This document shows, one piece after another, positions 4,640 to 16,286 of a stretch of DNA of 64,000 nucleotides. Below the pieces are notes generated by a model. That model did no database searches. It worked only from the letters and a program-made list of their open reading frames with translations, and had not been told where the DNA came from. Numbering within the stretch: position 1 is the first letter of the stretch; each line of letters begins with the position of its first letter. The position numbers and the translations under genes are program-made. Source of the DNA: Tahibacter aquaticus (GTDB lineage: Bacteria > Pseudomonadota > Gammaproteobacteria > Xanthomonadales > Rhodanobacteraceae); NCBI RefSeq assembly GCF_004363655.1, contig NZ_SNZH01000023.1, positions 1 to 64,000 on the forward strand, in the 5' to 3' direction.

Positions 4640-4951
4640 GGAAAAGTCTCCGCTGAGCTAGCAGCAGAACCCGCGCCGGTACAGCGAGCCGTGGTCACTG
4701 CCGATGAAATGGATTTTTGGAAAAGGATGGCCGCCCCTCTCTCCCAGAGGCGAGGTCTTACGTTCCATTAACCATACGCCATAGTCAAGTTGCGGACTCA
4801 GCAGGCGGCCGCCGGGACGCGCTCGCAAGGCTGGGGCACCCGGCGGTAACCTGCGGCGGCCTTCAGTTCAGGCTGAGCGGGCACCCGCCTCTGCCGCAAC
4901 ATCCGCTTGCCGGATCGGCGGCGGCAAAACGCAGGGCCGGCGACATCGTGC
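4640..4951. other. Intergenic region with nothing recognised
   Basis: 312 bp between the secreted-protein gene and the end of the MFS gene, both on the minus strand. It must contain the promoter of the secreted-protein gene, but I see no convincing sigma-70 boxes, repeat or RNA structure. Confidence 0.4.
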
Positions 4952-6118
4952 CTAGGCAGCCGATGCCAGCGACCGCGAACGCGGCTCGCGCAGCGCCAGC
5001 ACCAGGGCCAGGCCACAGGCGGCCATCGCCGCCCCGGCCAGCGCCACGGCAGGAAAGCCGAGACCGGTGCCGATCACCACCCCGCCCACTACCGCACCCA
5101 CGGCATTGCCCAGGTTGAACGCGCCGATGTTCATGGCCGAGGCCAGGTTGGGCGCATCGGCCGCCGCGGCCATCACGCGCATCTGCAGCGGCGGCACGAC
5201 GGCGAAGCTGGTCACGCCCCAGAGGAAGATCAGCAGCGCGGCAGGCACGGGCCAGCGCATGCCCACGGAGAACAGCAGCAGCAACAGCACCGTGCCGGCC
5301 AGGGTGACGATCAGCGTGCCGTCGATGGAGCGGTCGCCGTAGCGCCCGCCCAGCCAGTTGCCCGCGGTCAGGCCCAGCCCGTAGACCACCAGCATTGCGG
5401 CAACGAAACCTGTCGAGGCCTGCGTCTGCTGCAGCAGGATGGGCGCGAAGTACGTGAACACGGTGAACATCGCGCTGGAGGCGATCACGGTCATGGCCAG
5501 GGCCAGCAGTACCGGGCCGCGCCGCAGCACGCGCAGTTCGGCGCGCAGGTCGCTGCGTGCGTCGGCGGCGACAGCGGGCAGGGCCAGGCGCAGCGCGAGC
5601 ATGGCCAGCACGCCCAGCCCGGCGATGGCACCGAATACACTGCGCCAGCCGAACTGTTCCGCCGCCCAGGCCGCCAGCGGCACACCGCCGACGGTGGCGA
5701 TGGTCAGGCCCATGAACATGGCGGCGACCGCGCCGGCGCGCTTGTCCTCGGCCACCAGCCGCGCGGCGACGACCGCGCCGACGCCGAAGAAGGCGCCATG
5801 GTTGAGCGACGTGATCACCCGCGCGACCAGCAGGGTGAGGTAGTCCGTCGACAGCGCGGCAAGCAGGTTGCCGGCGGTGAAGATGGCCATGAGGACGATC
5901 AGCAAGGTGCGGCGCGGCACGCGCGCGGTGGTCAGGGTCATCAGCGGCGCGCCGATCAGCACGCCGAAGGCGTAGGCGCTGACCAGCAGCCCGGCAGTCG
6001 GTATGGAAATGCCCAGGTCGCTGGCGACGGCCGGCAGCATGCCCATGGGCGCGAATTCGGTGACGCCGATGCCGAAGGCGCCGACGGCCAGTGCCAGGAT
6101 GGCGGTATTGAGTTTCAT
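4952..6118 (-). CDS. MFS transporter, AraJ/YdhP-type exporter
   Basis: A 388-aa inner-membrane protein of the major facilitator superfamily, of the DHA1 sugar-efflux/drug-efflux type (AraJ, YdhP, NepI relatives). It has about 12 hydrophobic segments. The family opening AVGAFGIGVTEFAPMGMLP is followed by AYAFGVLIGAP and the loop TTARVPRRTLL between helices 2 and 3. The start at 6118 directly precedes the first helix, and the length is typical. The substrate cannot be read from sequence. It is divergent from a LysR regulator 104 bp away, an arrangement that usually means the regulator controls the transporter in response to the transported compound or a relative. Confidence 0.85.
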   Translation of the reverse strand: MKLNTAILALAVGAFGIGVTEFAPMGMLPAVASDLGISIPTAGLLVSAYAFGVLIGAPLMTLTTARVPRRTLLIVLMAIFTAGNLLAALSTDYLTLLVARVITSLNHGAFFGVGAVVAARLVAEDKRAGAVAAMFMGLTIATVGGVPLAAWAAEQFGWRSVFGAIAGLGVLAMLALRLALPAVAADARSDLRAELRVLRRGPVLLALAMTVIASSAMFTVFTYFAPILLQQTQASTGFVAAMLVVYGLGLTAGNWLGGRYGDRSIDGTLIVTLAGTVLLLLLFSVGMRWPVPAALLIFLWGVTSFAVVPPLQMRVMAAAADAPNLASAMNIGAFNLGNAVGAVVGGVVIGTGLGFPAVALAGAAMAACGLALVLALREPRSRSLASAA

Positions 6119-6222
6119 GTGCGTTCCCTGTTGAATCCGCGGCAAAGATAAAGGCAAGCCCCAACCCGCAGTAGTCGGCAATCCGGGCAAGCACCTTTGC
6201 GTTGAAATCACAGGTGAGGAAA

Positions 6223-7140
6223 ATGCGCGTAGACCGGGCCAGCGAGATGGAAGCCTTCGATGCGGTCGTGCGCAGCGGCAGCCTGTCGGCGGCGGGACGC
6301 GCGCTGGGCCTGACGCCGTCGGCGCTGAGCCGCATCCTGTCGCGCATCGAACAGCGCCTTGGCGTGCGCCTGCTGATCCGCACCACGCGGGCGCTGACGC
6401 TGACGCCGGAGGGCAAGGCCTATCACCTGGCGGCGCAGCGCATCCTGGCCGACCTGGACGAATCGGAAGGCGCCATCGCCTACCAGGCCGCACCGCGCGG
6501 CCGGCTGCGGGTCAGTGTGGGGCCGGCCTACGGGCGGCTGGTGATCGTGCCGCTGCTGGCCGAGTTCGTGGCGCGCTATCCGGAGATCCTGGTCGACATC
6601 AGCCTGAGCGATGCCCTGGTCGACATACTGGCCGGGCAGACCGACGTGGCCATCCGTTTCGGCCCGCTGGCCGACAGCCCGCTGACCGCGCGCCGCCTGG
6701 GCAGCAACGGCCGCACCATCGTCGCCTCGCCAGCCTACCTGGCCCGCGCCGGCACGCCGCAGGTGCCGCAGGACCTGGCCCGGCACAATTGCCTCAATTT
6801 CAATTTCCGCCGCGCCGAACCGAGCTGGCCGTTCCGCCAGGACGGCCGCGACTATGTGCTCGACGTCAGCGGCAACATCGAGGCGAACAACGGCGAGACG
6901 CTGGCGCAGCTGGCCTTGCAGGGCAGCGGCATTGCGCGCCTGGGCAGCTTCCATGTCGATGCCGAGGTGGCGGCGGGAAACCTGGTTGCCTTGCTGGAAA
7001 AGTACAATCCCGGCGATACGGAAAATGTACACGCGCTGTTCGTCGGCGGCGCCAGCACGCCGCGGCGGGTGCGCGTGTTTGTCGATTTCCTGCTGCAGCG
7101 GCTGGCGCCACCGGACGGGCCGGCCCCTATCGCCGGCTGA
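6223..7140 (+). CDS. LysR family transcriptional regulator
   Basis: A 305-aa LysR-type regulator. The winged helix-turn-helix covers residues about 6-65 (EMEAFDAVVRSGSLSAAGRAL, then SALSRILSRIEQRLGVRLL), and the effector-binding domain runs from about residue 90 to 295 (RGRLRVSVGPAYGR, VDILAGQTDVAIRFGPLADS). I chose ATG 6223 because AGGTGAGG lies 3-4 nt upstream; a TTG 21 nt earlier keeps the frame but has no ribosome site. It most resembles the subgroup that regulates adjacent MFS exporters or reductases. Its likely target is the divergent transporter gene, through the 104-bp shared intergenic region. Confidence 0.87.
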   Translation: MRVDRASEMEAFDAVVRSGSLSAAGRALGLTPSALSRILSRIEQRLGVRLLIRTTRALTLTPEGKAYHLAAQRILADLDESEGAIAYQAAPRGRLRVSVGPAYGRLVIVPLLAEFVARYPEILVDISLSDALVDILAGQTDVAIRFGPLADSPLTARRLGSNGRTIVASPAYLARAGTPQVPQDLARHNCLNFNFRRAEPSWPFRQDGRDYVLDVSGNIEANNGETLAQLALQGSGIARLGSFHVDAEVAAGNLVALLEKYNPGDTENVHALFVGGASTPRRVRVFVDFLLQRLAPPDGPAPIAG

Positions 7141-7503
7141 GGGCCGCGGACGCGTTCCCGCAGCCTGCAGACAGCGCTGCCACCACGCGCCGGTGCAGCC
7201 GGCAATGACCGGGAAAAAGCCGTCTGCAAGCCGTATTCCTGTTCTCTCCAAGCGCAATCCCAGGCACCCGCCTATCACCCTCGGCGACGGAATTCCGGCG
7301 CTTGTAAGCCTCGCGGGAAAGTTGATATTTTGCCCGCGGCATGGCGCGCCAATGCGCCTGCGGGCCGCCTGTCAGGGGATGGCGGGGCACCGGTCATGTA
7401 CACACGTCGATTCGTCGACATGTGCAATTCCCGCGCTGCGCACGCAGGGCGCATCGCCGCACGATCGCATCCACCAGCCCGTTGTATCAGCCAAAGGATC
7501 GCC
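7141..7503. other. Leader region of the ferritin-like/MNIO operon
   Basis: 363 bp without a supported gene. It contains an imperfect palindrome at 7399-7426 and a lower-GC patch near 7315-7335 (TTGATATTTTGCC). I cannot assign a promoter with confidence. The operon start codon at 7504 is preceded by AAGGA. Confidence 0.45.
7399..7426. promoter_or_regulatory. Imperfect palindrome upstream of the MNIO operon
   Basis: TACACACGTCGA (7399-7410) and TCGACATGTGCA (7415-7426) pair at 10 of 12 positions around a TTCG loop, ending 77 bp before the first gene. As DNA it could be a dimeric regulator site; as RNA it would be a stem capped by a stable UUCG tetraloop in the leader. The sequence does not decide between them. 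Confidence 0.4.
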
Positions 7504-9555
7504 ATGACCGACAGCCACAAGCACAGCGACCCGGTGCGGCCGCTTTCGCCCGCCGAGATCAAGCTGGTCGAGCATATCGACCGCAGCTGGACCCGCGAAC
7601 GCGCCCTGGCCGAGCTGAAGGAACACCTGCAGATCGCCATCGAGGTGGAACTCGCCACCATTCCGATCTATCTCTACACCTATTACTCGATCGACCGCAC
7701 GCCGGCTTCGTTTCCCGACTCGGCGCTGTCGCGCTTCGCCGACCAGGCCGGCGCGGTGATCATGAGCGTCGCGGTGGAAGAGATGCTGCACATGTCGCTT
7801 TCTTCCAATGTACTTTTCTCGCTGGGCGTGCAGCCGCAGCTCTACCTGCGCTCGCCGGCACCCTACCCGACCAACCTGCCGGGTCACCAGAAGCTCGGCC
7901 CCGATGCCAGGCCGCTGGCCCTGCCGCTGGCACCGTTCTCGCTGCAGCAGCTGTGGCAGTTCCTCGAGATCGAATACCCCGCCGCGTCCGACGCACCACC
8001 GCAGGGCGGCGCCTGGACGACCATCGGCCAGATCTATTCCTACGTGCGCTGCATCATCAGTTGCCGGCACATCACCGACGCGGATTTTCACCAGGGCGCC
8101 AGGCTGCGCCAGATCCAGTCGACCAACTATTCGCCGAACAATATCGACACGGTGTTTCCCGGCGGCAGCTTCGACAAGACCTGTCCGGTACCGGCGCCGG
8201 TGGCCGGCTCGGCCGCGACGGTCGCCGTATACCCCAGCCGCGGCGACAGCCATGCCGGCCGCGCCCAGCTGATCACCATCGATTCGCGCGAGACCGCGCT
8301 GCAGGCGATCCAGACCATCGACGCCCAGGGCGAGGGCTTCGGCACCAGCAAGTTCGACGATCCGTCGAAACAGGAAGAATCGCACTACTACAAATTCCTG
8401 AGCCTGCAGTCGCAGCTCGCCGGCTATGACGCGCAGCACGAGCACCTGCCGAAACACCCCAAGCCACCGGCGCCGGCAGCGCGGCAGTTCACGCCCGAGG
8501 AACTCGCCCAGGTGGTGTTCGACTTTCCCGACAACCCGGTAGCCTCGGCCTATCCGGCCGGCCGGCGCGAGCTGGCCAACGTGGTGAGCGGGCTGTACCA
8601 GTACATGCTGATCCTGACCGAGACCATCTTCCTGCAGGAGCCGGCCCGGCAGAAGCTGTACTTCAACCAGGCCCTGCACCGCTCGATGATCTGGATACTC
8701 GACAAGGTCATCCGCACCATGCGCGGTGTGTTCCTGCAGCAGAGCAGCAGCGTCACCGGCAACCCGCGCCTCGCGCCGACCTTCGAGAACCTTGACCTGG
8801 GGCCGCGCGACCAGGCCTTCGCCACGCTGGTGACGATGTGCAGCGAGCTGGATGCGCGCTACGGCAACGAACCCTGGTACAGCCAGGATCTGAAGTACTA
8901 CGTCGACATGGTGCCCAGCCTGCCCGACGTCAGCGCGTTCTGGGCCGCACCGGCGCAGCCGGGCTGCGATGTATCGAAGTACACAGGTGTACCGAAATTC
9001 CCGGCCAGCCCGCCGGCGACGGTGGGCGACAACGAAGTGCGTCACGCCTGCATGGGCCTGAACCACTGCGCCGGCCAGGGCCGCACGCGCGACAACGCCT
9101 GCGCCGGCCAGGGCTACTGCTCTACCGCGCTGGAATACAACTACGCCCAGCCCGCTTCGCCGACCGTTTCGGACCATACCTGCCACGTCAAGAACGCCTG
9201 CGCCGGCCAGGGCGGCTGCGGCCTGTACGGCACCGGCGAGGAGCAGAACGACCCGGGCCACAACCAGTGCGCCACGCTGGGCTCCTGCGCCACGCCGATC
9301 AATGCCGAGCGCTTCAGCACCGACGGCCCGAATCGCGGCAAGGGTGTCTGGCTCAGGGCGCGCGAAGTCTTTACGCAAAAGACCTGGCCGTCGCTGCGGC
9401 ACCAGCAGCCGAAACTGCCGGCCCAGCCGCCTGCGGTGCCGCATGCGCAACTGTTCCAGTACGGCCCGACCATCGAGTGGATTCAGGACTACAGCGGCGA
9501 AGGCATGACTGCCTGCGGCTCCAGCGGCATGAGCGGCGCCGGCAGCTGTGCCTGA
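7504..9555 (+). CDS. Ferritin-like protein with internal Cys-rich CAGQG segment; candidate MNIO substrate
   Basis: A 683-aa protein. Residues about 30-260 match the ferritin-like family seen in VioB/RebD-type proteins (PF12902 type): helix EVELATIPIYLYTYYS and the metal-binding E92-E93-x-x-H96 (VEEMLHMSL). A second helical region (about residues 340-490) contains GLYQYMLILTETIFLQEP. Residues about 515-600 are cysteine-rich, with three CAGQG motifs (NHCAGQG, NACAGQGYC, NACAGQGGCG) and further His-x-Cys pairs; the C-terminus ends with two more cysteines. CAGQ-type cores resemble those of bufferin-like peptides modified by MNIO enzymes. No signal peptide is seen with the ATG at 7504 (AAGGA upstream). 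Its last 8 nt overlap the MNIO gene. An enzyme role for the ferritin part is possible but unproven. Confidence 0.8.
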   Translation: MTDSHKHSDPVRPLSPAEIKLVEHIDRSWTRERALAELKEHLQIAIEVELATIPIYLYTYYSIDRTPASFPDSALSRFADQAGAVIMSVAVEEMLHMSLSSNVLFSLGVQPQLYLRSPAPYPTNLPGHQKLGPDARPLALPLAPFSLQQLWQFLEIEYPAASDAPPQGGAWTTIGQIYSYVRCIISCRHITDADFHQGARLRQIQSTNYSPNNIDTVFPGGSFDKTCPVPAPVAGSAATVAVYPSRGDSHAGRAQLITIDSRETALQAIQTIDAQGEGFGTSKFDDPSKQEESHYYKFLSLQSQLAGYDAQHEHLPKHPKPPAPAARQFTPEELAQVVFDFPDNPVASAYPAGRRELANVVSGLYQYMLILTETIFLQEPARQKLYFNQALHRSMIWILDKVIRTMRGVFLQQSSSVTGNPRLAPTFENLDLGPRDQAFATLVTMCSELDARYGNEPWYSQDLKYYVDMVPSLPDVSAFWAAPAQPGCDVSKYTGVPKFPASPPATVGDNEVRHACMGLNHCAGQGRTRDNACAGQGYCSTALEYNYAQPASPTVSDHTCHVKNACAGQGGCGLYGTGEEQNDPGHNQCATLGSCATPINAERFSTDGPNRGKGVWLRAREVFTQKTWPSLRHQQPKLPAQPPAVPHAQLFQYGPTIEWIQDYSGEGMTACGSSGMSGAGSCA

Positions 9556-10549
9556 GGCCACCGCAGCGAGCGGCGACAAGGCGGCAACGGCACAGCAGAA
9601 CAAAGGGACAAGGCCACAAAGCGCACTCGGCCTGGGCGTGGGACTGCGCAACACGCATTTCGACCATATCCTGGCCGAGCAGCCGGCGGTGGACTGGTTC
9701 GAGGCCATCTCGGAGAACTTCATGGACTCCGGCGGCCGGCCGCGCGCGGTGCTGCGCCAGATCGCGCAGCGCTACCCCCTGGTGCTGCACGGCGTATCGC
9801 TGTCGATAGGCAGCACCGATCCGCTGGACCGCGGCTACGTGCAGCGCCTGCGCCGCCTGGCCGACGAAGTGGATGCACGCTGGGTCAGCGACCACCTGTG
9901 CTGGACCGGCGTACTGGGCATCAACAGCCACGACCTGCTGCCGCTGCCGCTCAACGCAGAAGTGCTGGCCCATGTGACGTCGCGCGTACACGCCGTGCAG
10001 GAATGGCTAGGCCGGCCACTGGTGCTGGAAAACCCCAGCACCTATCTGCGCTTTCGCGACTCGACCCTGGGCGAACCGGATTTCCTGCGCGCACTGTGCG
10101 AAGCGACCGGCTGCCAGCTGCTGCTCGACGTCAATAACGTTTTTGTCAGCTGCTACAACGCCGGCACCGATGCCCAGGCCTACCTCGATGCGTTTCCGTT
10201 CGAGCGCGTGGTGCAGCTGCACCTGGCCGGACACCAGCACTGCGGCACGCATATCGTCGACACGCACGACCGCGCGGTCAGCGAGCCGGTGTGGCAACTG
10301 TTCCGCTGCGCCTGGCAGCGCAGCGGCGGCGCTGCGACCCTGCTGGAATGGGACGGCAACGTGCCTGCGTTTCCGCAGCTGCATGCGGAAGTGCTGCGGG
10401 CACGCCAGTTCATGCACGATGCCAGCCCCGCGCACGCGACGGCAGCAGCCCTGGCTGCAACACCGGCGGCTGTGGACGAGGGGCTGTCGACACCCGTCGA
10501 TTTTCTCGTTCCCGACGTGATGCAGCGCAGCCGGCTCCAGCCCGCATGA
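9548..10549 (+). CDS. DUF692 multinuclear non-heme iron oxidase (MNIO), BufB-like
   Basis: A 333-aa TIM-barrel protein of the DUF692/MNIO family. Known members (MbnB, TglH, BufB) use two or three iron ions to rewrite cysteines in ribosomal peptides. Family motifs are all present: WFEAISENF, HGVSLSIGS (H81), WVSDHLCW (D115, H116), ENPSTY (E161, N162), LLLDVNN (D194, N196), HLAGH (H225, H229), DTHD and LLEWDG (E267). The start is GTG at 9548, inside the last codons of the upstream gene, so translation is coupled. It is followed by a 4-bp overlap with the DUF2063 gene. The most likely substrate is the Cys-rich segment of the upstream protein. Residues 1-25 are a low-complexity extension. Confidence 0.88.
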   Translation: MPEATAASGDKAATAQQNKGTRPQSALGLGVGLRNTHFDHILAEQPAVDWFEAISENFMDSGGRPRAVLRQIAQRYPLVLHGVSLSIGSTDPLDRGYVQRLRRLADEVDARWVSDHLCWTGVLGINSHDLLPLPLNAEVLAHVTSRVHAVQEWLGRPLVLENPSTYLRFRDSTLGEPDFLRALCEATGCQLLLDVNNVFVSCYNAGTDAQAYLDAFPFERVVQLHLAGHQHCGTHIVDTHDRAVSEPVWQLFRCAWQRSGGAATLLEWDGNVPAFPQLHAEVLRARQFMHDASPAHATAAALAATPAAVDEGLSTPVDFLVPDVMQRSRLQPA

Positions 10550-11379
10550 GCGCGGCCCCGACGCTGCCGGCCTTGCAGCAGCGCCTGCTGCAGGCGCTGA
10601 TCGCCCCCGCGCCGGCCGACCGCGCCAGCGCCGCCGACTGGATACAGCCCGGTGCGCGTATCGACGCCGCCGCCTGCCTCGATATCTACCGCCGCAGCTA
10701 CGTGCTGCGCCTGCGCCGCTGCCTGGCCGAGCAGTTTCCCGCCACGCGCCACGCCCTGGGCGCGGCGCTGTTCGACGACTTTGCTGATACCTATCTGCGC
10801 GACTGCCCCTCGGACAGCACGACGCTGTACCAGCTCGGCCGCCGCTATGCCGACTGGCTGGAACGCAACCGGCCCGACCGCGACAGCCCTGCCGACGAAC
10901 GCGAGGACTGGATCGATTTCCTGGTCGACCTGGCGCGCTACGAACGTGAACTCTTCCACTTGTTCGACGCACCGGGCGCCGAAGACCAGCCCTGGCCCGA
11001 CGCATCAGCCGATGACAGCGAACTGGTGCTGCAGCCCTGCCTGACACTGGCGCAGTACCGCTATCCCGTCGCCGGGTATTACCACGAGGTGCGCGCCGGC
11101 CGCGATCCGGCGTTTCCGCCGCGGTCGGATTGCTGGGTCGTGGTACTGCGCCGCGACTACGACACGACGACGTTTCCGGTCAGCGAGCTGCACTTTCGCT
11201 TTCTCAGCCTGGTGCAGCAGCAGGCATCGATCGACGCTGCGCTGCAGGAGATCTCTGCCTGGACGGGGCGGACGCTGGATGCGGTAAGGCAATCGTGGCG
11301 GGCGGATGTCAGGCGGGCCTGGGTGGAAGCGGGCTTTTTCCTGAGACGCACTACCGGCGTACACGACAAGCAGCGATAG
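10546..11379 (+). CDS. DUF2063 MNIO partner protein, BufC/HvfC-like
   Basis: A 277-aa protein with an N-terminal DUF2063 domain (residues about 6-105). The domain was named for putative DNA binding but is now known as the usual partner of MNIO enzymes, where it helps recognise the precursor. Visible signatures are LQQRLLQALIAPAP, IYRRSYVLRLRRCLAEQFPATRHALG and LYQLGRRYADWLERN. The C-terminal half (about 110-270) is a less conserved mixed domain with FPVSELHFRFLSLVQQQ. The ATG overlaps the MNIO stop as ATGA, so the three genes are translationally coupled and probably made in fixed ratio. No membrane DoxX-type gene or separate small precursor follows. Confidence 0.85.
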   Translation: MSAAPTLPALQQRLLQALIAPAPADRASAADWIQPGARIDAAACLDIYRRSYVLRLRRCLAEQFPATRHALGAALFDDFADTYLRDCPSDSTTLYQLGRRYADWLERNRPDRDSPADEREDWIDFLVDLARYERELFHLFDAPGAEDQPWPDASADDSELVLQPCLTLAQYRYPVAGYYHEVRAGRDPAFPPRSDCWVVVLRRDYDTTTFPVSELHFRFLSLVQQQASIDAALQEISAWTGRTLDAVRQSWRADVRRAWVEAGFFLRRTTGVHDKQR

Positions 11380-13643: not shown

Positions 13644-16040
13644 TTACCAGGTGTAATTGAGCGACACGCCAATGATCCGCGGCTCGTTGTAGACCGCCGC
13701 CATGTAGTTCTCGATCGCGCCCTTGAGGTTCTTCTCGTTGGTGATATTGCGGCCGAACAGCGCGACTTCGTAGGCGCCGTAGCCACCGCTGTATCCCAGC
13801 TTCAGGCCGCCTTCGACATTGCCGTTGGCATTGAATTCCACCGAGTCGTACAGCACGAAGCTGGTGCGCCCCTGCTTGTTCCAGTCGGTCGCTATGAAGA
13901 ACGTGCCGCTGTCGCTGAGCGGAATGTCATAGCGCGCGGCCAGGTTGACGGTGTACTTGGGCGCGTTCGGCAGCGGGTTGCCGTCGATCTGGGCGAAGGT
14001 GTTCGCGCCGATGCGGAGGGTCGGGTCGTTGACCGTGCAGACCACCACGCCGTTGAGCGCGCAGACCTGCGCATACACGCGCTTGTCCTGGATTTCGCTC
14101 TTGAGCAGGCTCAGGCCCGCACTCAGCGCGAGGTTCGGTAGCGGGCGCCAGTCCAGGTCGGCTTCGAGGCCGTGGGCCTTGGCCTTGTCGGCATTGAACA
14201 GCACACCGTTGCCGTTGGAGTCGTTACCGTTGAGCTGGATGTCATCGACGCTATAGGCGAAGCCGGCGACGTTAAGGCGCAGGCGATTGTCGAGCAGGCT
14301 GGTCTTGATGCCCGCTTCCCAGGACAGGATGGTTTCGGAATCGGCCGTGGTGAAATCGGCATTGAATACCGCGGAACGGCCCTGGATGGTCGGCCCGCGG
14401 AAACCGCGCGCCACGCGCGCATACAAGCCCATTTCCGGACTGACGCTATACATGGCGCTCAGATCCCAGCTCGGCGTGCGGTCGGACAGGCTGACGTCGC
14501 GACGGCCGGTATAGGTCACGACGCCAGCCGCGGTATCGGCAGTCTTGAGCAGGCGCGTGCGCTTGCGGTCGTCGGTTTCGCGCACGCCGGCGGTCAAGGT
14601 CAGCGCGTCGCTGACCTGGTAGCTGAGCTGGCCGAACAGTGCCCAGGAGGTATTGCTGTTGCGCAGGCGCACCCAGTTGTTCGGATTGTTCGCCGGCGGC
14701 GTGAGAAACCAGGCGCGCTGGTAGAAATCGGTGGTGTCGCGGCCGTTGAAATAGAACGCGCCGGCCTGCCACTGCAGCGCAGTGTCGTTTTCGCTGGCGA
14801 GGCGAAACTCCTGCGTGTACTGGTCGAGATCGCGTACCTGCCCCATCGACTGGCCGTAGCCGTTGGGCAGGCCATTGACCGGGAAGTTCGCCGCGGCGCC
14901 GCCGTCGGTATCGCCGCGGCTATAGCCCGCGGTGCTCTCGTACGCGCTGATCGAGGTCAGCGAGATGCCGCCGAAGTTGTAGATCGCCTTGAGCGAGCCG
15001 CCGTGGGTCTTGTAGGCCTGCGGATTGTTGTTTGCCTCGTCGTAGGCCACTTCGTCGCGCGGCACGTCGACGCGGTTCGATCCCTTCACGATGGCGTTGC
15101 GCAGAAACAGCGTCGAGGTACCGTCGTAGTCGCGCGCATGGCCTGAAGCGAGCAGCGAGAAATTTTCCGACGGCTGCAGCAGCAGTTGCAGGCGCACATT
15201 GCGGTCGTCATAGCCGCCCATGGCATCGTCCTGCGGCGTGGCCGTGCCGTCGGCGCTGGGGCCACGGTAGCGATTGCTGACCCAGTCGTCGCGATGCTGG
15301 TACAGCGCCGACACGCGGAACGACGCGATGTCGCTGAGCGGACCGCCGACACCGCCGTCGAAGGAGAAAGAGCCGTAGCTGCCATAGCTCAGCTGGGCGC
15401 GGCCGGAATGTTCCTGGCCCGGCTTGATGCTGTCGAACTTGACGATGCCGGCCGTGGTATTGCGGCCGAACAGCGAGCCTTGCGGACCGCGCAGCACTTC
15501 CACCTGGTCGAGGTCGTAGACCGGGTTCGATTTCAGCACCACGTGTTCGAGCACGACGTCGTCCTGGATGATCGACACCGGCTGCGACGCGCCGAGATAG
15601 AAATCGATATTGCCCAGGCCGCGGATATAGAAGCGCGGGAAGATGCGGCCGGTCGTCGTTTCCGCGTACAGCGCCGGCACCCGGCCAGCCAGCGCCAGCA
15701 GGGTGTCGTCGCCGCCGGCGGTGTAGTCGCGCATCGCATCGCCCTGCACCACGCCGACCGAGACGGGCACTTCCTGCAGGTTTTCTTCGCGCCGCTCGGC
15801 GGTGACGGTCACGGTTTCCAGCGACGGGGTTGCGCCACTGGCCGAACCGCGCTGCGTCTGCGCATCGGCGACGGCCTCGGCTTCCGCGCTTTCCGCCGCC
15901 GACACGGCAACGGCCGCGGAGGCCAGCAACAGACTGGCCAAGGCCCGCACCAGCGCACGCCGGCGCGGCAGCGCAATCGAGGGGAAAGCGTGGTCGGCGC
16001 GACGCGGCGGCGCAGGGCGAAATGCAGGAAACAAAGACAT
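13644..16040 (-). CDS. TonB-dependent outer-membrane receptor
   Basis: A 798-aa receptor that would bind a ligand at the outer membrane and import it using TonB energy. An unusually long basic N-region (about 35 aa) precedes the signal-peptide core ALASLLLASAAVAVSA. A TonB-box-like LETVTVTAERREENLQEVP starts near residue 72. The plug domain follows (FYIRGLGNIDF, VEVLRGPQGSLFGRNTTAG), then a 22-strand-type barrel ending in the aromatic outer-membrane signal SLNYTW. Features such as QGSLFGRNTTAG and ENLQEVP place it with the Caulobacter/sphingomonad-like receptors, whose ligands range from iron chelates to oligosaccharides. The ligand here is unknown. No transport or enzyme genes adjoin. AAAGGA sits 9 nt before the chosen ATG at 16040. 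Confidence 0.88.
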   Translation of the reverse strand: MSLFPAFRPAPPRRADHAFPSIALPRRRALVRALASLLLASAAVAVSAAESAEAEAVADAQTQRGSASGATPSLETVTVTAERREENLQEVPVSVGVVQGDAMRDYTAGGDDTLLALAGRVPALYAETTTGRIFPRFYIRGLGNIDFYLGASQPVSIIQDDVVLEHVVLKSNPVYDLDQVEVLRGPQGSLFGRNTTAGIVKFDSIKPGQEHSGRAQLSYGSYGSFSFDGGVGGPLSDIASFRVSALYQHRDDWVSNRYRGPSADGTATPQDDAMGGYDDRNVRLQLLLQPSENFSLLASGHARDYDGTSTLFLRNAIVKGSNRVDVPRDEVAYDEANNNPQAYKTHGGSLKAIYNFGGISLTSISAYESTAGYSRGDTDGGAAANFPVNGLPNGYGQSMGQVRDLDQYTQEFRLASENDTALQWQAGAFYFNGRDTTDFYQRAWFLTPPANNPNNWVRLRNSNTSWALFGQLSYQVSDALTLTAGVRETDDRKRTRLLKTADTAAGVVTYTGRRDVSLSDRTPSWDLSAMYSVSPEMGLYARVARGFRGPTIQGRSAVFNADFTTADSETILSWEAGIKTSLLDNRLRLNVAGFAYSVDDIQLNGNDSNGNGVLFNADKAKAHGLEADLDWRPLPNLALSAGLSLLKSEIQDKRVYAQVCALNGVVVCTVNDPTLRIGANTFAQIDGNPLPNAPKYTVNLAARYDIPLSDSGTFFIATDWNKQGRTSFVLYDSVEFNANGNVEGGLKLGYSGGYGAYEVALFGRNITNEKNLKGAIENYMAAVYNEPRIIGVSLNYTW

Positions 16041-16286
16041 CGAGGGCAATCCTTTCGTAGTGCGCAGGGCGCGATGCGGTCCGGCGTGCAGTGCACTGAC
16101 GGCATCGTGGCGGAACGTTCCGCACCGCGGCACGCTAGGGGAAACGTATTGCAGCGCAGTTGCACAAGCGCGCCGATGCGGGGCAATTGCGCCGCAGCCG
16201 CCGCGCGCTGTGCACCGGCGCCAGGGCAGTCGGACATTCCGTTCCGTCGCGGGCACGAGGCCGCAGGGCAGCAGCAGGAGCAGCGC

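Follow-up and report, generated by a model that had tools for sequence, protein, structure and literature searches.

The first 64,000 nucleotides of contig NZ_SNZH01000023.1 of Tahibacter aquaticus (hereafter the window, meaning the whole stretch of DNA analysed) contain a three-gene operon encoding a 683-residue ferritin-like protein, an MNIO oxidase and a DUF2063 partner protein. The C-terminal part of the ferritin-like protein is a cysteine-rich domain that is very probably the substrate of the MNIO. In most of the relatives found this tail is a separate small gene, so the window protein joins an enzyme-like protein to its likely substrate. Because the domain is separable, and is best seen as a distant, expanded relative of the bufferin-2 precursors, the operon is read here as a fusion variant of a precursor-MNIO-partner arrangement accompanied by a ferritin-like gene. 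Taken whole, the explanation we favour as reasonably probable is a cytosolic bufferin-type modification system whose precursor domain has been joined to a ferritin-like protein. The parts of the operon, all on the forward strand, are as follows.

7493..7498, +, AAAGGA, putative ribosome-binding site 5' of the ATG of the ferritin-like open reading frame (ORF), read from the sequence
7504..9555, +, fused ferritin-like/bufferin-like protein, 683 residues (ORF, translation, PF12902, full-length relatives)
7504..8958, +, ferritin-like module, residues 1-485 (conservation, AlphaFold2, PDB match)
7627..8409, +, PF12902 Ferritin-like match, residues 42-302 (Pfam)
8959..9042, +, variable linker, residues 486-513 (conservation among fused relatives)
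9043..9321, +, bufferin-2-like cysteine-rich core, residues 514-606, the proposed MNIO substrate (conservation, BufA2 comparison)
9049..9069, +, first cysteine pair, C516-x3-N520-x-C522
9094..9120, +, N-x-C-x5-C unit NACAGQGYC (C533, C539)
9193..9219, +, N-x-C-x5-C unit NACAGQGGC (C566, C572)
9262..9288, +, N-x-C-x5-C unit NQCATLGSC (C589, C595)
9322..9552, +, C-terminal helix region and tail, residues 607-683, with C671 and C682 (model, conservation)
9548..10549, +, MNIO oxidase (BufB-type), 333 residues, GTG start (ORF, Pfam, NCBIfam)
10546..11379, +, DUF2063 partner protein (PME-type 1), 277 residues (ORF, Pfam)

Relatives, gene order and co-occurrence with the MNIO

An alignment of three sequences, the window protein and two full-length relatives, served to scan 84,980 species genomes. 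Of the 205 loci found, the best 80 were retained (L045 and L055 among them are the two query relatives), and their ORFs were searched with hidden Markov models (HMMs) for the cysteine-rich part, the MNIO and DUF2063. The cysteine-rich part is present in 72 of the 80. Eighteen of these have the fused form of the window, and the other 54 encode the part as a small ORF of its own; one of the 54, L116, is split over several frames and was assigned to the separate-gene group. The separate ORFs, with starts chosen by us and L116 left out of the range, run from 155 to 263 residues with a median of 213. An MNIO gene is found in 71 of the 72 loci, the exception (L061) being a contig that ends inside the cysteine-rich ORF. 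A DUF2063 gene is found in 69, and the other three (L061, L045, L107) are cut by contig ends. A PF12902 gene lies alongside in all 72, and every separate-gene locus that has an MNIO (53/53) shows the order ferritin-like, cysteine-rich, MNIO, DUF2063.

PF12902 proteins without the cysteine-rich part provide the comparison. Fourteen such loci of 5 to 13 kb each were examined, six from the 80 (L118-L122 and L124, the last with only 1.7 kb behind the gene) and eight fetched otherwise (L026, L027, L039-L044; four from the genus of the window, one from its family, one from its class and two from plasmids). None of the 14 matches the MNIO, DUF2063 or cysteine-rich HMM at E 0.001, unlike the window. 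Eight of the 80 lack the part; the remaining two, L103 and L117, stop at the match and were set aside. The first-pass annotation had proposed to ask whether the cysteine segment occurs only where the MNIO does, and the outcome favours its view: an MNIO accompanies the segment in 71 of 72 loci and is found in 0 of 14 loci without it. The same annotation took the large upstream protein to be the MNIO substrate. That protein does carry the likely substrate; what must be amended is that the substrate would be a separable C-terminal domain, encoded by its own gene in 54 of the 72 loci.

Searching with the cysteine-rich alignment alone leads to the same cassette. Among 971 genomes of three families (347, 329 and 295), 5, 2 and 2 genomes match, and all nine loci have a ferritin-like gene and an MNIO, with DUF2063 within the short flank in eight. 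Of the nine, six are the same loci as in the first scan (centre genomes included) and three are new (L127, L131, L133). Because the loci are related to one another, such counts do not represent independent trials. No cysteine-rich domain lacking the ferritin-like gene and MNIO was found in these 971 genomes. Within the groups to which the window belongs, the system is rare and unevenly spread: full-length relatives occur in 1 of the 146 other family genomes, 0 of a class sample of 368 and 1 of a phylum sample of 397. It is present in at least the Pseudomonadota, Bacteroidota, Myxococcota, Actinomycetota, Acidobacteriota and Cyanobacteriota. A tblastn search of plasmids with the cysteine-rich part alone gave no match, which is not proof of absence, as a distant fused form on a plasmid (L134, below) was found through its MNIO. 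A search of IMG/VR with the window protein gave two pattern matches, none confirmed, from a single-protein query that reaches close relatives only.

The trio itself was described correctly by the first-pass annotation as to coordinates, lengths and the overlaps of 8 bp (ferritin-like/MNIO) and 4 bp (MNIO/DUF2063). Because its gene order recurs across phyla, it is not a chance arrangement. Pfam assigns the 683-residue protein to PF12902 (129 bits, cut-off 22.3, residues 42-302), the MNIO to PF05114 (MbnB_TglH_ChrH; 353.4 bits, cut-off 25) and the partner to PF09836/DUF2063 (63.9 bits, cut-off 27.2). The annotation's remark that the operon lacks a small precursor gene extends to the whole window: among its 1062 ORFs of at least 25 residues, only the ferritin-like ORF gets a good score from the cysteine-rich HMM (7.1e-80), the runner-up has an E value of 0.051, and no second cysteine-rich precursor of this kind was found. 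A chance or frameshift origin of the tail was considered and rejected, as a single open frame is kept in 18 fused relatives and residues 514-606 are more conserved than the ferritin part in 18 of 18. Over the 170 codons from residue 514, the window protein and its 88%-identical relative L045 share 117 codons, with 34 synonymous and 19 nonsynonymous differences.

Directly upstream of the operon, at 4955-7137, stands a divergent pair of genes for an MFS transporter and a LysR regulator, a commonplace arrangement that shows no sign of being part of it. A large ORF at 13644-16256 on the minus strand has a translation that resembles, by eye, a TonB-dependent receptor. In other genomes, a family of proteins of about 350 residues is encoded within a few kb of the cassette at nine of the 72 loci (L049 at 4805-5899, L050, L052, L053, L063, L065, L071, L081, L116). 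Three of the four members scanned weakly resemble the THAP4 heme-binding barrel, with a best E of 0.0047 that does not reach the cut-off. A search of the window genome for this family found nothing, with no positive control. At L116 (Pseudoalteromonas sp. NBT06-2) the cassette itself appears broken, with ferritin-like, MNIO and DUF2063 matches in several short frames.

Kinship of the cysteine-rich domain and history of the fusion

Conservation was read from an alignment of the window protein with 57 ferritin-like rows from the 72 relatives and 38 of the 54 separate cysteine-rich rows. Residues 514-606 form the best conserved segment in 18 of 18 fused relatives, and of the four segments compared, linker 486-513 is the least conserved in 14 of the 18. 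The nine cysteines of the core (516, 522, 533, 539, 560, 566, 572, 589 and 595) are present in 57 of 57 rows. For the cysteine-rich part as a whole there are 11 conserved cysteines, ten of them in 57/57 rows and C682 in 55/57. Each of the 38 separate precursors has three N-x-C-x5-C units; the window has three plus the leading C-x3-N-x-C pair.

Two-way profile matches to BufA2, together with the common N-x-C-x5-C units, argue for a distant relationship to bufferin-2. With an alignment of 39 of the 54 separate rows plus the window, 36 of 40 cysteine-rich members match the NCBIfam model BufA2 (NF050166) at E up to 1. The best has an E value of 3.8e-6, which by comparison with the score of the window implies a value well under the curated 60 bits. 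Conversely, the cysteine-rich HMM recovers, with E 1.7e-6 at Z = 1000, a true BufA2 encoded on a Pseudomonas putida plasmid (92.5 bits). This protein contains NGCKGQNDC and NACKGQGEC, and a second BufA2 (locus L135) has one N-x-C-x5-C unit. Fourteen of the 40 members also match the model of the exosporium protein CdeC (best E 0.0019), which we take to reflect cysteine-rich composition. The cluster encoding the plasmid BufA2 (L136:1810-3447) lies downstream of an ISPa41 (IS5-like) transposase gene.

Fusion or fission has probably happened more than once, since the two trees require five changes (MNIO) and three (ferritin) between fused and separate forms. A quick MNIO tree of 82 rows includes 73 from the system (the window, 69 distinct relatives and three repeats, L125, L126 and L129, of L081, L053 and L068), seven plasmid BufB-like rows and one HvfB row; L045, L085, L087, L107, L116 and the repeats L128, L130 and L132 were left out. 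In this tree the system's MNIOs cluster together, separate from the BufB-like and HvfB rows (support 90 in the Shimodaira-Hasegawa-like approximate likelihood ratio test, SH-aLRT), a provisional result given the long outgroup branches, and few of the five changes are forced by strong branches. A quick ferritin tree of 80 rows (without L045, L061, L085, L087, L109, L111, L115 and L116) places 65 MNIO-linked proteins in one clade (SH-aLRT 99), and all three of its changes are forced by strongly supported branches. A plasmid of Pseudoalteromonas sp. NC201 (L134:1058-3427) carries a far-diverged ferritin-like/cysteine-rich fusion beside MNIO and DUF2063 genes. Its ferritin part falls outside the MNIO-linked clade, on a long branch beside two proteins without MNIO, and it may represent a second, independent origin of the arrangement.

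Several observations weigh against the favoured explanation as a whole. The window domain scores 16 bits against BufA2 (E 0.011), far below the curated cut-off of 60. A Sec signal peptide is usual in bufferins, and by a hydropathy test this family has none: the stretch before the core has a mean hydropathy of no more than 1.33 in the 54 separate precursors, and the window N-terminus has 0.28, against 1.61-2.15 in three controls (L003, L135, L136). The test is crude and not SignalP, with start codons chosen by us, and separate precursors with fewer than 15 residues before the core have no room for a signal peptide. The N-termini of some separate ferritin-like proteins (L092, L079, L093, L094) reach 1.6-1.8; because they are as hydrophobic as those of the secreted controls, export of the L092/L094 type is possible. 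All four N-x-C cysteines of the window are followed by Ala, where Cys-Lys precursors have Lys, and at the position that, in an inferred alignment, is Asp in Cys-Lys MNIOs the window enzyme has Gly, so specificity or product may differ. The AlphaFold2 model has a predicted local distance difference test (pLDDT) score mostly below 60 up to residue 600, and it does not show where the cysteine-rich part lies with respect to the ferritin site. Since the ferritin-like protein was the route to the 80 loci, they carry little information on cysteine-rich domains elsewhere. Finally, no neighbouring family recurs at more than nine of the 72 loci and no copper gene is a regular neighbour (DoxX and sigma genes were not searched by name).

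The MNIO, the ferritin-like module and possible roles of the domain

The window MNIO scores 353.1 bits against MNIO_BufB (NCBIfam NF050167), above the equivalog cut-off of 310, and DUF2063, the PME-type 1 signature, is found at E up to 0.001 in 41 of 41 aligned partners (the window plus 40 of the 69). Such partners correlate with signal-peptide precursors (PMC12452194), and the system described here, pairing them with putative substrates that lack signal peptides, is an exception to the correlation reported there. The MNIO reads LEWD-G, and Gly follows the presumed catalytic-base Asp in at least 53 of 72 MNIOs of the system. At the position after this Asp, Lys-Cys group MNIOs have Phe and Cys-Lys group MNIOs have Asp (PMC13097082). 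From an alignment with 3bww, and not with the FonB sequence itself, we infer the Gly to be equivalent to FonB-Phe250. A Gly is compatible with a substrate in which Cys is followed by Ala, Lys or Arg, and would leave room for a different product.

The window genome (7.27 Mb, 82 contigs) encodes one PF12902 protein and two MNIOs. The second MNIO (locus L003, G000:C1:194431-198240) belongs to an Hvf/oxazolin-type cluster with a DUF2063-like gene and has RD-F at the position of LEWD-G. The precursor there (996-1463, by eye) has EGKCG, an EF-hand-like stretch and an apparent signal peptide. On gene order, and given its own HvfA/EGKCG precursor, this MNIO was ruled out as a competitor for the proposed window substrate.

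The ferritin-like module is modelled confidently by AlphaFold2 from a 96-row alignment (residues ~10-480, pLDDT mostly >90), and the best PDB match of the model is 3hl1, a Caulobacter ferritin-like protein (E 4.9e-7, TM 0.63 by target length). All 58 aligned ferritin rows have E49, E93, H96, E277, E291, H294 and H392, and 57 of them have E373. From the fold and ferritin motifs, these eight would be the candidate di-metal ligands. The match to VioB iminophenyl-pyruvate dimer synthase (TIGR04492) is weak, at 25.4 bits against an equivalog cut-off of 1250 in NCBIfam. Beyond the poorly predicted core, residues ~610-650 of the window protein reach pLDDT 70-87. A 156-residue separate cysteine-rich member modelled alone has a mean of 60.2, with its helical C-terminal part near 80. 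The cysteine-rich domain model has no PDB match at E 0.001, and comparison with a viral fold library was uninformative. Poor prediction and the lack of a PDB match would be in keeping with a substrate that is flexible or with a fold that depends on metal.

The mechanism we propose is built by analogy with characterised MNIO systems. The MNIO and its DUF2063 partner would bind the C-terminal domain (residues ~514-683), and the MNIO would oxidise some of the 11 conserved cysteines, the likeliest targets being C522, C533, C566 and C589, each after an invariant N-x. The likeliest product would be 5-thiooxazole, as in the nearest characterised MNIOs. The result would be a metal-chelating module, most likely copper-binding, that remains cytosolic and acts together with the ferritin-like domain, in which the full set of candidate di-metal ligands is kept. 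The cysteine modification, the thiooxazole chemistry, the metal and the cooperation with the ferritin domain are all inferred.

As to what the ferritin-like domain does, our preferred reading is that the modified tail serves it as a metal or redox module. A more specific form, which we put forward tentatively and hold to be somewhat short of probable, is that a thiooxazole site made by the MNIO serves as a built-in, protein-bound cofactor of a ferritin-like oxidase, in cis in the window and 18 relatives or as a small partner protein in the other 54. Roles could also be assigned the other way around, with the ferritin-like domain as a second tailoring enzyme acting on the cysteine-rich precursor of the MNIO, in cis in the window and in trans where the genes are separate. 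Borosin methyltransferases, which are fused to their own substrate, are a precedent. The place of the ferritin-like gene as first in the operon (53/53 separate loci), fusion to the precursor and not to the MNIO, the nearly invariant candidate metal ligands and the membership in PF12902 of oxidases such as VioB all agree with such a role. We consider it unlikely, as we know of no activity for this PF12902 clade, the VioB match is far from its cut-off, and the model gives no sign of the cysteine-rich part reaching the putative di-metal site.

That the ferritin-like protein is an iron or redox helper, loading or protecting the multi-iron site of the MNIO so that the fusion only joins helper and substrate, would be in keeping with the ferritin-like fold and with the multi-iron cofactor of MNIOs (PMC13419390). 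It is improbable: FonA was modified by FonB and FonC in E. coli from a three-gene cluster (PMC13097082), and the fusion is with the substrate domain rather than with the MNIO. Very improbable is a reading in which the cysteine-rich part is a plain metal-binding or disulfide domain, left unmodified, and the MNIO pair acts elsewhere in the cell. In its favour, unmodified cysteines can bind metal, and the window domain scores below the BufA2 cut-off. Against it stand the pairing of the domain with an MNIO in 71 of 72 loci, the grouping of these MNIOs in the tree, the homology to BufA2 and the fact that the other MNIO of the genome has its own precursor.

To return to the preferred reading, in which the ferritin-like domain uses the modified tail, its interest is that MNIO enzymes are known as makers of small, mostly exported, metal-binding peptides. 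That a cytosolic bufferin-like domain travels with a ferritin-like di-metal protein, and has probably been fused to it more than once, points to MNIO chemistry as a possible means of giving an enzyme a metal site. In the fused form, substrate, chemistry, stoichiometry and function can all be measured on one protein, with 54 separate-gene relatives as natural controls.

Comparison with known systems

The N-terminal module has the fold and motifs of PF12902 proteins such as 3HL1 (CC_0557) and VioB. Bufferin Buf1 is modified to thiooxazoles by a BufB-type MNIO (PMC12452194), and thiooxazoles of captophorins are made by a FonB-type MNIO (PMC13097082). The closest likeness is to the Buf2 bufferins (BufA2-BufB2-BufC2). 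The window has the gene order of BufA2 clusters, with precursor, MNIO and DUF2063 partner in succession, and the systems have in common N-x-C-x5-C repeats, a weak but repeated profile match and a BufB-type MNIO. The window system differs in lacking a signal peptide (by the hydropathy test), in having 11 conserved cysteines rather than the 6 or 12 given for Buf2 in PMC12452194, in a precursor that is 155-263 residues long or fused to a ferritin-like protein and, in the window, scores below the BufA2 cut-off, and in the PF12902 gene alongside in 72 of 72 loci. The captophorins and oxazolins (FonABC, HvfABC) likewise combine an MNIO, a DUF2063 (PME1) partner and a cysteine-rich precursor. The window domain lacks their EGKCG repeats, and its MNIO has LEWD-G where, in the inferred alignment, the Lys-Cys group has Phe.

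Bufferin domains joined to larger metal-related proteins have been described (Buf1-cytochrome c-FGE-sulfatase, MerC-Buf1 and MerC-Buf2; PMC12452194). Section 14 of that paper gives no ferritin-like fusion among them, and the word "ferritin" is absent from its main text. A search of the open-licence literature for a ferritin-like protein with an MNIO gave no paper among the matches listed. The putative precursors called adjamnio-I (PMC12452194, Table 2) resemble the separate precursors in length (122-293 residues), in having 8-21 cysteines and no signal peptide, and in preceding the MNIO gene. Their partners are of PME-type 2, without the DUF2063 signature, in contrast to the 41 of 41 DUF2063 partners in the window system. 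As described in that table, adjamnio-I might be the separate form of the family found fused in the window.

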